From positions 1 through 53,404 of the forward strand of contig VGBI01000008.1 in NCBI GenBank assembly GCA_016870595.1: a stretch of DNA of 53,404 bases. The letters are read 5' to 3'. Below the pieces are notes generated by a model. The model was not told the origin of the DNA and did not search any database. It was given only the letters and a program-made list of their open reading frames with translations. The position numbers were made by a program, and so were the translations under genes. The number at the start of each line of letters is the position of its first letter. Position 1 is the first letter of the stretch. This DNA comes from Actinomycetota bacterium. GTDB taxonomy: Bacteria; Actinomycetota; Acidimicrobiia; IMCC26256; PALSA-555. Below are positions 1-4,400 of the stretch, one piece after another.

Positions 1-411
1 GCGCAGGATGTGCCAGGGCACCACGTTGGCGTGGTGCTCGAGGTGACTGAGGACGATGGCGTCGCCGGGCTGCAGGTTGGCCCGGGCCCATGAGTAGGCG
101 ACGAGGTTGATGGCCTCGGTGGCGTTGCGGGTGAAGACGATCTCGCGTGACTCCCGGGCGCCCACGAAGCGTGCGACCTTGGTGCGGGCCGCCTCGAACA
201 GCGTGGTCGCCTCCTCGGCGATCGTGTAGGCGCCCCGGTGCACGTTGGCGTACGACTCGCGGTAGACGCGGTCCATGGCGTCGAGCACGGCCTGGGGCTT
301 CTGGGCCGACGAGGCCGAGTCGAGGTAGACCAGGCGCTTGCCCCGCACCTCGCGGCGCAGGATCGGGAAGTCGGCCTGGATGCGGGCGACGTCGAGGGCG
401 GTCGTGCTCAC
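1..411 (-). CDS. sufS: Cysteine desulfurase SufS (N-terminal part; runs off window start)
   Basis: Minus-strand translation MSTTALDVARIQADFPILRREVRGKRLVYLDSASSAQKPQAVLDAMDRVYRESYANVHRGAYTIAEEATTLFEAAR...; GTG start overlaps sufC stop (GTGA, 408-411). Confidence 0.9.
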   Translation of the reverse strand, partial: MSTTALDVARIQADFPILRREVRGKRLVYLDSASSAQKPQAVLDAMDRVYRESYANVHRGAYTIAEEATTLFEAARTKVARFVGARESREIVFTRNATEAINLVAYSWARANLQPGDAIVLSHLEHHANVVPWHILR

Positions 412-1166
412 GCCGACACCTCGGTCCGGAATGCGTCGAAGCCGTCACGCTCGACCCGGGCCGCGACCTCGGGCCCACCGCTGACGGCGATCCGGCCGTC
501 GAGGAGCACGTGCACGCGGTCGGGGGCGAGGTGGTCGAGGATCCGCTGGTAGTGGGTGATCACGAGGAGGGCCAGCGCGGGCCGGTCGGCCCGGATCTCC
601 TGGATGCTGCGGGCGACGTCGACGAGGGCGTCGATGTCGAGGCCGGAGTCGGGCTCGTCGAGCACGGCGAGGTCGGGCTCCATCAGCGCCATCTGCAGGA
701 TCTCGTTCTTCTTGCGCTCCCCGCCCGAGAACCCCTCGTTGAGGTAGCGGGAGACGAAGCGGTCGTCCATGCCGAGCCGCCCGGACCACGCCAGCACCGC
801 CATGCGCACCTCGAGGACCGAGAAGTCGGCGATCCCCTTGCGGTTGGCCAGTGCCTGGCGCAGGAAGTTCAAGACGCTGACCCCGGGGATCGCCTCGGGG
901 TGCTGGAAGCCGAGGAACATGCCCCGGGCCGCCCGGCCGTCGGGTCCGAGGTCGGTGACGTCCTCGCCCCGGAAGCGGATCCGGCCCGCGGTCACCGTGT
1001 ACCCAGGGTCGGCGAGGAGGGTCTTGGCCAGCGTGGACTTGCCGGAGCCGTTGGGGCCCATGAGCGCGTGCACCTCGCCCTCGGGCACGGCCAGCGACAC
1101 GCCCCGGAGGATCTCGTGGTCGCCGACGGCGACATGGAGGTCGTCGAGCTCGAGGACGGGAGCCAT
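408..1166 (-). CDS. sufC: Fe-S cluster assembly ATPase SufC
   Basis: ORF 252 aa; Walker A GPNGSGKST, signature FSGGERKKNEILQ, LDEPDSGLDIDAL typical of SufC. Confidence 0.95.
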   Translation of the reverse strand: MAPVLELDDLHVAVGDHEILRGVSLAVPEGEVHALMGPNGSGKSTLAKTLLADPGYTVTAGRIRFRGEDVTDLGPDGRAARGMFLGFQHPEAIPGVSVLNFLRQALANRKGIADFSVLEVRMAVLAWSGRLGMDDRFVSRYLNEGFSGGERKKNEILQMALMEPDLAVLDEPDSGLDIDALVDVARSIQEIRADRPALALLVITHYQRILDHLAPDRVHVLLDGRIAVSGGPEVAARVERDGFDAFRTEVSA

Positions 1167-1200
1167 GCCCGTAGTGTAATTCCCACTACCGCCGTAGTGG
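1167..1200 (-). promoter_or_regulatory. sufC promoter with candidate operator (GTAGTG..CCACTAC-cgcc-GTAGTGG)
   Basis: Perfect 7-bp inverted repeat CCACTAC(1183-1189)/GTAGTGG(1194-1200) plus a third half-site GTAGTG(1171-1176); minus-strand TACACT (1178-1173) lies 6 nt before the ATG. Confidence 0.6.
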
Positions 1201-1227
1201 AAAAGTCCGGGAGCGCCCGTGCCGCCG

Positions 1228-2355
1228 TCAGCGTCGGCCGGCGGCGGCCCGGGTGAGCTCGTCGGCGATGCGCCCGGGCGGATCCGGGGCCCGCAGGGGC
1301 GGCCGGCGGCGGCGGCGCTCGGCCGACGTGGGCCCGGTGGTCCCGAGCCGGTCGGCGAGCGCGGTGGCGAGGGCGGCGGCGTCGCCGACCCGGACCAGGT
1401 CGGCCGCGCCCGGGGCGGCCGCCGCGGCGATCTCCCGGGGCCCGCCCGCGTCGGACATCACCACCGGGGTCCCGCAGGCCAGGGCCTCCACCGCCACGAG
1501 GCCGTAGGGCTCGGGCTCGGTCGACGGCACGGCGAGCACGTCGAGGTCGGCGAGCAGCTCGGCGACGTCGGTGCGGGGACCGAGCCAATGGGTGCGGGGC
1601 AGGGTGGCGGCGAGGACGTGCAGCGCCTCGGCGTAGGCCTCCTTGCCGCGCACCGGCGCGCCCGCCACCACGAGGTGCGCGTCGGGGACCCGGGCCCGCA
1701 CGAGCGGCAGCGCGTCGAGCAGCACCTCGACGCCCTTCCACGTGTCGATCCGCCCGGCCATCCCGATCACCGGTACGTCGTCGGGGATCCCGGCCCCGGC
1801 CCGGAACGTCCCGGCGCGCGCGGGGGAGAACTCGGCGGGGTCGGCCGTCTCGTGGACGACGACGACGTCGGCACCTGGGAGCTGGTCGGCGACCGCCTGC
1901 GACACCGCGAGCACCCGCGTCGCGAAGTGCCGGGTGAGCACCTGCTCGACCCGCAGTGCCGCCGTCGATTGCACGGTGATCTCGCGGGCGTGCCACACGT
2001 GGGGCCGCCGGGTCAGGGCCGCGGCGGCCCAGCCGTACCACGAGTGCAGCGAGTTCGAGTGCACGACGTCGATGTCGAGGGCGCGGATCAGCCGGGTGAT
2101 CCGACCCACGGCGACCGGCCAGCCGGCCCCGTAGCGCGCCCAGTCCGCGGATCCGTGCGACGTCGAGATGCGGGCCATGGGCACGACGTGCACCGCGGCG
2201 CCCGCCGCCTCGAGCCCCGGCCGCAGCGGCGGATCGGCCGGGACGACGACGTGGCACTCGAACGCCGCGGGTGGCAGGCTGCGCAGCATCCTGACCAGGG
2301 CCTGATCCGAGCCGCCGCGCTCGGCGACGGGTTGGATCGTGAGCAGCCGGACCAT
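1228..2355 (-). CDS. GT4-family glycosyltransferase
   Basis: MVRLLTIQPVAERGGSDQALVRML...GMAGRIDTWKGVEVLLDAL...VPSTEPEPYGLVAVEALACGTPVV: GT4 C-terminal motif. ORF extends upstream, but this start is the natural one. Confidence 0.85.
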   Translation of the reverse strand: MVRLLTIQPVAERGGSDQALVRMLRSLPPAAFECHVVVPADPPLRPGLEAAGAAVHVVPMARISTSHGSADWARYGAGWPVAVGRITRLIRALDIDVVHSNSLHSWYGWAAAALTRRPHVWHAREITVQSTAALRVEQVLTRHFATRVLAVSQAVADQLPGADVVVVHETADPAEFSPARAGTFRAGAGIPDDVPVIGMAGRIDTWKGVEVLLDALPLVRARVPDAHLVVAGAPVRGKEAYAEALHVLAATLPRTHWLGPRTDVAELLADLDVLAVPSTEPEPYGLVAVEALACGTPVVMSDAGGPREIAAAAAPGAADLVRVGDAAALATALADRLGTTGPTSAERRRRRPPLRAPDPPGRIADELTRAAAGRR

Positions 2356-3544
2356 GCGCGTCGCCCTCAACCTCGAGCAGCTCCTCCAGCCGACTCCGGG
2401 CGGGATCGGCCGGTACGCCGCGGAGTTGGCGAGGGTACTGCCCACTCTCCCAGCGTCCGACGACCCGGGCGCGGGCGCAGCCGACGACCCGGGCGCGGCC
2501 GTCGACGCGGGCGCGGTCGAGGTCGTCCCGTTCGTCGCCCGCCACCCCGGCCCGGTGGTGGACGCGACGATGCGGGCGGCCGGGCTCGGCCCCGCCACCG
2601 TCCTCCCGTGGCCGCGCCCGCTGCTCTACGAGCTCTGGAACCGGTGGGGCCGGGCCGATCCGCTCCGCCGTCTGCCCGCCGGGGCGGTCGACGTCGTGCA
2701 CGCACCCTCGGTGGCGGTCCCGCCGCGGCGCCGGACGCCGCTGGTGGTCACCGTGCACGACGCCGCCCCGATGCGGTTCCCCGACACCTATCCGCCCCGG
2801 GGCCGGCGCTTCCACGAACAGGGGGTGCGGGCGGCGGCGGCGCGGGCCGACGCGGTCGTGGCCCCGACCGCGGTGGCCGCCGACGAGGTCGCCGAGTTCA
2901 CCGCGATCCCCCGGGACCGGATCGTCCCCATCCACCACGGGGTGGACCACACGCCGGCCACCGACGCCGAGGTCGCGGCGGCCCGGGCCGACCTCGGGCT
3001 CGGCGATCGTCCGTACGTGTGCTGGGTCGGGACGCTCGAGCCCCGCAAGGACGTCGGGGTGCTGATCGACGCGTTCGCCCGGCTCGTCGATCGGGACGAC
3101 CCCCCGCACCGACTCGTGCTCGTGGGTCCGAGCGGATGGCTCGACGGCGCCGGGGCCGCCGTGACGCGGGCTGCGACCCTCGGCGACCGGGTCCGCTTCA
3201 CCGGAGCCGTCCCGGCCGACCGTCTGCGCGCGCTCTACGGCGGTGCCGACTGCTTCGCGCTGCCGAGTCGTCACGAGGGCTTCGGGCTCCCCGTGCTCGA
3301 GGCCGCGGCGCAGGGCACGGCGGTGTTGGCGTCCGACCTCCCGGTGCTGCGGGAGATCGCGGGCACGGCGGCGCGCTTCGTCCCCGTCGGGGACGTGGAG
3401 GCGTGGACCCACGCGCTCGGCGACCTCCTCCGAGACGACGCCGCGCGCGCCGCCCTGGGCGCAGCCGGTCGGGCGCGGGCCGCCGAGTTCACCTGGGCGC
3501 GCAGCGCGCGCGCCCACCTCGCCGTCTACCGGTCCGTCTGCTGA
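2354..3544 (+). CDS. GT4-family glycosyltransferase
   Basis: MRVALNLEQLLQPTPGGIGRYAAEL...WVGTLEPRKDVGVLIDAFARL...LPSRHEGFGLPVLEAAAQGTAVLASD. Alternative in-frame GTG at 2339. Confidence 0.85.
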   Translation: MRVALNLEQLLQPTPGGIGRYAAELARVLPTLPASDDPGAGAADDPGAAVDAGAVEVVPFVARHPGPVVDATMRAAGLGPATVLPWPRPLLYELWNRWGRADPLRRLPAGAVDVVHAPSVAVPPRRRTPLVVTVHDAAPMRFPDTYPPRGRRFHEQGVRAAAARADAVVAPTAVAADEVAEFTAIPRDRIVPIHHGVDHTPATDAEVAAARADLGLGDRPYVCWVGTLEPRKDVGVLIDAFARLVDRDDPPHRLVLVGPSGWLDGAGAAVTRAATLGDRVRFTGAVPADRLRALYGGADCFALPSRHEGFGLPVLEAAAQGTAVLASDLPVLREIAGTAARFVPVGDVEAWTHALGDLLRDDAARAALGAAGRARAAEFTWARSARAHLAVYRSVC

Positions 3545-3591: not shown

Positions 3592-3628
3592 GGTGATCCC
3601 CGCTCCGGCGCGGTGCGGGGCGATCACC
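3592..3628. terminator. Imperfect hairpin between convergent genes
   Basis: GGTGATCCCCGC - loop - GCGGGgcGATCACC; lies at the convergent 3' ends; no T-tract. Confidence 0.45.
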
Positions 3629-4235
3629 AGCCCCGGTCGGCCCACTCCTGGAGGTACGGACGCTCGTGGGCGAGCGTGGTGTCGAGGCCGTGTCCGGGCA
3701 TGACCAGCAGGTCGCCCGCCAAGGCGAACAGCCGACGGTCGATGGACTCGAGGATGCGGGGGAAGTCGCCCTCGGGCGACCGGGTGTTGCCCGGTCCCCC
3801 GGGGAACAGGGTGTCGCCGGTGAACAGCACCGGGTGCCCCTCGATCCGGAACGAGGTCGAGCCCGGGGTGTGCCCGGGGTTGTGGATCGTGCGGAGGCGC
3901 AGGCGACCCACCTCGATCACCTCGTCGTCGGGCAGCACGAAGTCGTAGCCCGGGAGCATCGCGGCGTCGGCCTCGGCGATCCCGACGTCGATCCCGGCGT
4001 CGCGCAGGGCCGTCACCGCCTGGATGTGGTCCCAGTGGCCGTGGGTCGTGAGGACCCGCCGGACCCCGCTGGCCCGGGCCACCTCGAGCAGCAGGTCGTG
4101 CTCGTTGGCCGCGTCGACGATCACGGCGTCGCCGGAGGTCGTGCACCGGACCACGTACACGTTGTTCTCGAACGGGCCGACCACCAGCTTGTCGACCCGG
4201 ACGCCGGTGGCCTCGTAGTGGGGACGCCGGGGCAT
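3624..4235 (-). CDS. MBL-fold metallo-hydrolase (glyoxalase II-like)
   Basis: MPRRPHYEATGVRVDKLVVGPFENNVYVV...THGHWDHIQAV...NPGHTPGSTSF...LFTGDTLFPGGPGNT: THxHxDH motif. Confidence 0.88.
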   Translation of the reverse strand: MPRRPHYEATGVRVDKLVVGPFENNVYVVRCTTSGDAVIVDAANEHDLLLEVARASGVRRVLTTHGHWDHIQAVTALRDAGIDVGIAEADAAMLPGYDFVLPDDEVIEVGRLRLRTIHNPGHTPGSTSFRIEGHPVLFTGDTLFPGGPGNTRSPEGDFPRILESIDRRLFALAGDLLVMPGHGLDTTLAHERPYLQEWADRGW

Positions 4236-4400
4236 GGGTCGAGGGTAACGGTCCCCGGCCGCGGGGCCGGGCCGGGGGCGGTGACGGACGGTGTAGGTTG
4301 CCACCGGCCCGGGTCCCGCCCGACCGGTCCCGGCCCGCGAACCGCACCGTCAGCCGGATCGGCATCGACCGCCCGACCGGCACGACCAGGAGGACCCGTC

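Follow-up and report, generated by a model that had tools for sequence, protein, structure and literature searches.

A conserved palindrome at the suf promoters of Acidimicrobiia and a SufR-like protein that may bind it

Just upstream of sufC in an acidimicrobial contig, the letters GTAGTG recur in alternating orientation within 30 bp, which raises the question of whether they form a regulatory site and, if so, of what kind and for which protein. The window analyzed here is a stretch of 53,404 nt that begins within sufS; the source genome is assembled in 165 contigs and is 93% complete. An earlier note had read the three arms as an array lying over the sufC promoter, and its letters and coordinates all proved correct: GTAGTG (1171-1176), CCACTAC (1183-1189) and GTAGTGG (1194-1200), the last two forming the palindrome CCACTAC-N4-GTAGTGG with the 4-nt spacer CCGC. 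The minus-strand TACACT (1178-1173) that it took for a -10 box is likewise present, 6 nt from the sufC ATG (1166).

Table 1. Features of the sufC promoter region and the candidate regulator gene
Feature	Position	Strand	Basis or remark
sufS, SufS-type cysteine desulfurase	1..411	-	cut by contig end; overlaps sufC end
sufC, Fe-S assembly ATPase, first gene of the putatively controlled operon	408..1166	-	TIGR01978
Predicted -10 box of sufC, TACACT	1173..1178	-	sequence; aligned T-A-n-n-n-T kept among relatives
Candidate operator	1180..1203	-	TTTCCACTAC-GGCG-GTAGTGGGAA on minus strand; core palindrome 1183-1200
TTTCCA, possible weak -35	1198..1203	-	inferred; inside upstream half of candidate operator
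SufR-like candidate regulator	G000:C45:2191-2964		258 aa

The palindrome at sufC and its recurrence at suf loci

About 61 bp separate a glycosyltransferase ORF (end at 1228) from sufC, and the candidate operator (Table 1) is situated in this gap. The sufC reading frame scored 297 bits against TIGR01978 in a profile search (cut-off, 212.8). As the earlier note had proposed, the site overlaps the predicted core promoter of sufC, with 19 nt between TTTCCA and the -10 box in the window and 18 nt in most relatives. Because the start codon follows the -10 box by 6 nt, and this spacing is conserved (~6-10 nt in most of the first 30 relatives), the sufC mRNA is probably leaderless. The palindrome taken by itself says little: with 21 in the GC-rich window, exact 7-4-7 inverted repeats are no rarity, and one turns up in a shuffled 62-bp intergenic stretch with P = 0.006. 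Its significance therefore had to come from comparison.

That comparison covered 50 sufC promoters (the first 30 relatives, 19 further genomes and G059), with ORFs in the relatives' loci taken from stop-to-stop frames and tblastn. The palindrome is kept in 48 of them, and the motif is thus present upstream of sufC orthologues, a point on which the earlier note had in part staked its reading. The whole 30-bp block is conserved, the promoter in the first 30 relatives reading approximately TTTCCACTAC-N4-(G/A)TAGTG-n-TATTACAAT. In the source genome, a genome-wide search, which the earlier note had suggested as a check, finds TTNCCACTACNNNNRTAG without mismatch at exactly three places, all of them Fe-S loci: the promoters of sufC (where the match comprises both strands of one palindrome), of sufB and of a SufR-like winged helix-turn-helix (wHTH) protein. 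Among 61 related genomes, the exact pattern TTTCCACTACNNNNRTAG occurs 95 times, every time (95/95) at a sufR-like, sufC or sufB locus (35 at the regulator, 29 at sufC, 30 at sufB and 1 at a regulator/mrp contig edge), and a reversed control pattern has 0 occurrences in the same genomes. The palindrome is lifted above chance by being kept at sufC in the relatives and by recurring nowhere but at Fe-S loci; as predicted from these comparisons, it is an operator and no chance repeat.

In a sample of 397 genomes from the phylum, matches within the class again fall at sufB, sufC, sufS or the regulator, or next to one of them; matches outside the class occur at control level, and the exact out-of-class matches in two genomes (G279 and G402) are unrelated sequence at the control rate. 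A scan for the exact pattern across a collection of 85,000 species gave, among the matches listed, mostly unrelated chance hits, the informative ones being actinobacterial and beside suf genes. One Acidimicrobiia record has a regulator orthologue at 54% identity and an exact site 42 nt before sufB.

Across the sufC, sufB and regulator promoters, the site consensus is TTtCCACTAY-N4-RTAGTG, and at all three, that of sufC(-sufS-sufU) included, the motif overlaps the predicted core promoter. The sufU gene comes after sufS in G001 and G026; sufB is the first gene of a convergent sufB-sufD-Rieske-sufC2 cluster, with the motif ~55-110 nt before the gene, where it reads ATTGTTACTAT-N3-CGTAGTGGAAAT; and the regulator promoter in the source genome reads TTTCCACTACCGGGATAGGTAGAATACCGACC-GTG, its mRNA being probably leaderless also. 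The phase of the site differs among the three, since it lies between -35 and -10 at sufC, ~5 bp nearer the -10 at the regulator, and over the -10 and start region at sufB.

One could envision that the conserved block instead serves a dedicated sigma factor as a promoter element, or an activator as its site, because TTTCCA...TATTACAAT can be read as a -35/-10 pair and the full block is conserved at sufC. However, the block is palindromic, stands in reversed orientation at sufB, where it covers the -10 rather than lying upstream of it, and differs by ~5 bp in its distance to the -10 at the regulator, whereas a promoter element would be expected to be fixed in both spacing and orientation. We therefore regard this reading as improbable; three different phases combined with palindromy are better fitted by steric repression by a dimer.

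Several observations concern the organization of these loci. In more distant class members, the operator is also found before sufD (G059, L159:9379-9414) or sufS (G364, L316:1501-1518), which suggests that different suf promoters come under control as the structure of the operons changes. One relative (G028) has two copies of the same sufC type (G028:C1:397930 and G028:C3:101280) with the operator at both, reflecting either duplication of a suf cluster or mixing in the assembly. Two glycosyltransferase-like ORFs on opposite strands (window positions 1228-3544) separate sufC from an MBL-fold hydrolase gene (3624-4304), and in G026 the MBL gene is directly upstream of sufC. In three genomes, sufB is split by an intein-like insertion of at least ~1 kb (L154:749-3298 in G002, L162 in G028 and L288 in G017); in the last of these, the reading frame continues into CLPGGELVAMADGDWRPIEEIRVGDRV.

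The candidate regulator

A search of the source genome for Fe-S regulators returned a single strong Rrf2 protein and a pair of SufR-like proteins. One of the latter is encoded at G000:C45 (Table 1), behind the third exact site, and combines the features by which the SufR-like wHTH superfamily is recognized, namely an N-terminal HTH_20 domain (PF12840, 41.3 bits) and conserved C-terminal cysteines spaced CX12-13C. The full cysteine pattern, C-X13-C-X32-C, is present in 30/30 close orthologues, with X12 in a few more distant ones, and a helix segment, H(P/S)NVARHHL(E/D)KL, is found in all 36 regulator sequences compared. A search of the PDB with the regulator gave weak HTH matches alone (best E = 0.026). 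In 29 of 30 loci, the gene and mrp are divergently oriented; a NifS-type desulfurase follows the gene in all 30, and its own promoter carries the operator motif in 29, the remaining locus being cut by a contig end; such a site at the own promoter is a hallmark of canonical SufR, and autoregulation is accordingly predicted.

Site and regulator also tend to be present or absent together, although few independent losses lie behind this co-occurrence. Two well-covered genomes (G023 and G058) have sufC, lack the motif there and lack a regulator orthologue, and three others (G021, G032 and G038) are without the orthologue, without this sufC and without an exact site. The exceptions are incomplete genomes: G036 (79% complete), which has a site and in which no orthologue was found, and G030, which has a fragment of the orthologue. 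The likely binder of the site is thus very probably the SufR-like protein at G000:C45, apparently autoregulated.

Genes for suf or isc functions are often under the control of Rrf2 proteins, and the one strong Rrf2 gene in the source genome (132 bits) is related to the IscR and CymR models, scoring below their cut-offs; an Rrf2-family (IscR/NsrR/RirA-like) regulator could therefore be imagined at this site. Yet that gene has neither the motif upstream nor suf neighbours, its product has two cysteines only (C97 and C101), and the site tracks the SufR-like gene and its promoter, making an Rrf2 binder very unlikely. Of the Fe-S-sensing repressors named in the earlier note, SufR or Rrf2, the general kind is thus upheld in its SufR-like form by the sites at sufB and at the regulator's promoter, and the Rrf2 part is not.

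The SufR-like reading involves a single palindrome, and here the earlier note has to be amended. Because the outer GTAGTG does pair with CACTAC as a second inverted repeat, it had envisaged two overlapping operators, 1171-1189 and 1183-1200, occupied in a mutually exclusive or cooperative manner. But none of the other genomes read shows this additional arm, not even the three that belong to the same genus, whose letters at that position are TACACTGGGGGC (G001), TACACTGGACCC (G002) and TACACTCGCCCC (G003), and only the part belonging to the -10 box is kept; the complement of that box together with positions 1171-1172 makes up the GTAGTG in question. Since the arm is not conserved, what remains is one palindrome beside one -10 box and no array, and the third GTAGTG, judged from the alignment, consists of the -10 box and letters that match by coincidence in this species. 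Dual operators are, in our estimation, highly improbable. A BlaI/MecI-type repressor, which the earlier note had offered as a further alternative and whose sites the TAC/GTA half-sites presumably resemble weakly, can practically be discounted, as PF03965 had no match in the 93%-complete genome.

A predicted autoregulated circuit

It is highly likely, in our view, that an autoregulated, Fe-S-sensing repressor from the SufR superfamily uses the palindrome as its operator, and that this repressor is the protein at G000:C45:2191-2964. A homodimer of this protein would occupy both half-sites, which are spaced 11 bp from centre to centre, or about one helical turn as counted from the sequence. In its holo form, with an Fe-S cluster on C-X12/13-C-X32-C, it would block RNA polymerase at the three promoters; when clusters become scarce, through iron or sulfur starvation, oxidants or NO, the apo form would release the DNA, permitting production of the SUF machinery and of the sensor itself. 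SufR proteins repress in the holo form and derepress in the apo form (PMC10848736, PMC13421787), and it is by analogy with them that we infer repression rather than activation, and binding by the holo rather than the apo form. Because the cysteine spacing is unlike that of proven SufR, cluster binding by this regulator is best termed putative.

Relation to known SufR proteins

The resemblance to SufR is one of working. Like cyanobacterial SufR, the regulator is a winged-HTH protein with C-terminal cysteines and a palindromic operator of ~14-18 bp at suf promoters and its own, the cyanobacterial sites being at sufR and sufBCDS; like actinobacterial SufR (Rv1460 of Mycobacterium tuberculosis and SufR of Streptomyces avermitilis), it is predicted to repress suf and itself. 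In descent and detail, the proteins differ. The regulator scores 20.4 bits against the NCBIfam SufR model TIGR02702, below the cut-off of 178.8, and experimentally known actinobacterial SufR types, which also fall below that cyanobacterial cut-off, reach 66-94 bits, far more than the regulator does. In a tree, the regulator is separated by a 98/96 branch from the clade of cyanobacterial and actinobacterial SufR. Its C-X12/13-C-X32-C contrasts with C-X12-C-X13-C-X14-C in cyanobacteria and with C-X3-C-X12-C-X27-C or C-X12-C-X25-C-X1-C in actinobacteria; the C-X12-C-X27-C of the Rv1460 cluster ligands (C203, C216 and C244) is replaced by C-X13-C-X32-C in 30/30 close orthologues. Whereas actinobacterial SufR is encoded by the first gene of the suf operon, this regulator stands between mrp and a nifS-like gene, and its suf genes, unlike theirs, are in two operons.

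The operator differs as well. Known SufR operators have the form CAAC-N6-GTTG (PMC11995493, PMC13421787), which in Streptomyces overlaps the -10 and start site (PMC11995493), as against CACTAY-N4-RTAGTG here. CAAC-N6-GTTG was present at the control loci (three cyanobacterial and two Streptomyces SufR) and was not found in the scanned suf and regulator loci of the source genome and its relatives. A low family score, a separate clade, another cysteine spacing and another operator together mark a non-canonical SufR; by these measures, the regulator is not orthologous to the SufR of cyanobacteria, Mycobacterium or Streptomyces, and it is a protein that, as predicted, resembles SufR in working and is outside the SufR orthologous group.

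It thus appears likely that canonical SufR is replaced in the class by a non-orthologous Fe-S sensor that has a cysteine spacing (C-X12/13-C-X32-C), an operator (TTtCCACTAY-N4-RTAGTG) and a neighbourhood (mrp/regulator/nifS) of its own and that controls two separate suf operons and itself jointly, some of the promoters being leaderless. This would provide a closed three-promoter Fe-S regulon, together with a candidate regulator, in a class that is large and for the most part uncultured; no paper on SufR in Acidimicrobiia was found in the open-licence literature, and an earlier description elsewhere is possible. If this reading holds, one Fe-S sensor was swapped for a distant cousin with a new spacing of cluster ligands and a new DNA code, the circuit logic of an autorepressed SUF system being retained despite the exchange. 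The invariant helix segment and the operator together make the DNA code of the wHTH superfamily directly testable.

The second SufR-like protein of the source genome (L166:1420-2073, G000:C1) was considered as the binder and rejected, its own promoter having no copy of the operator. It shares with the regulator at G000:C45 the same half of the tree, a CX13C spacing and a place beside an mrp gene, but belongs to a distinct clade (100/99) and is followed by erpA instead of nifS. Its layout, with another mrp divergent to it and the gene of an ErpA-type carrier behind it, parallels the mrp/regulator/nifS arrangement, and its promoter carries a different, AT-rich stretch (AATAAAACC...TGTTGAAAATAGT).
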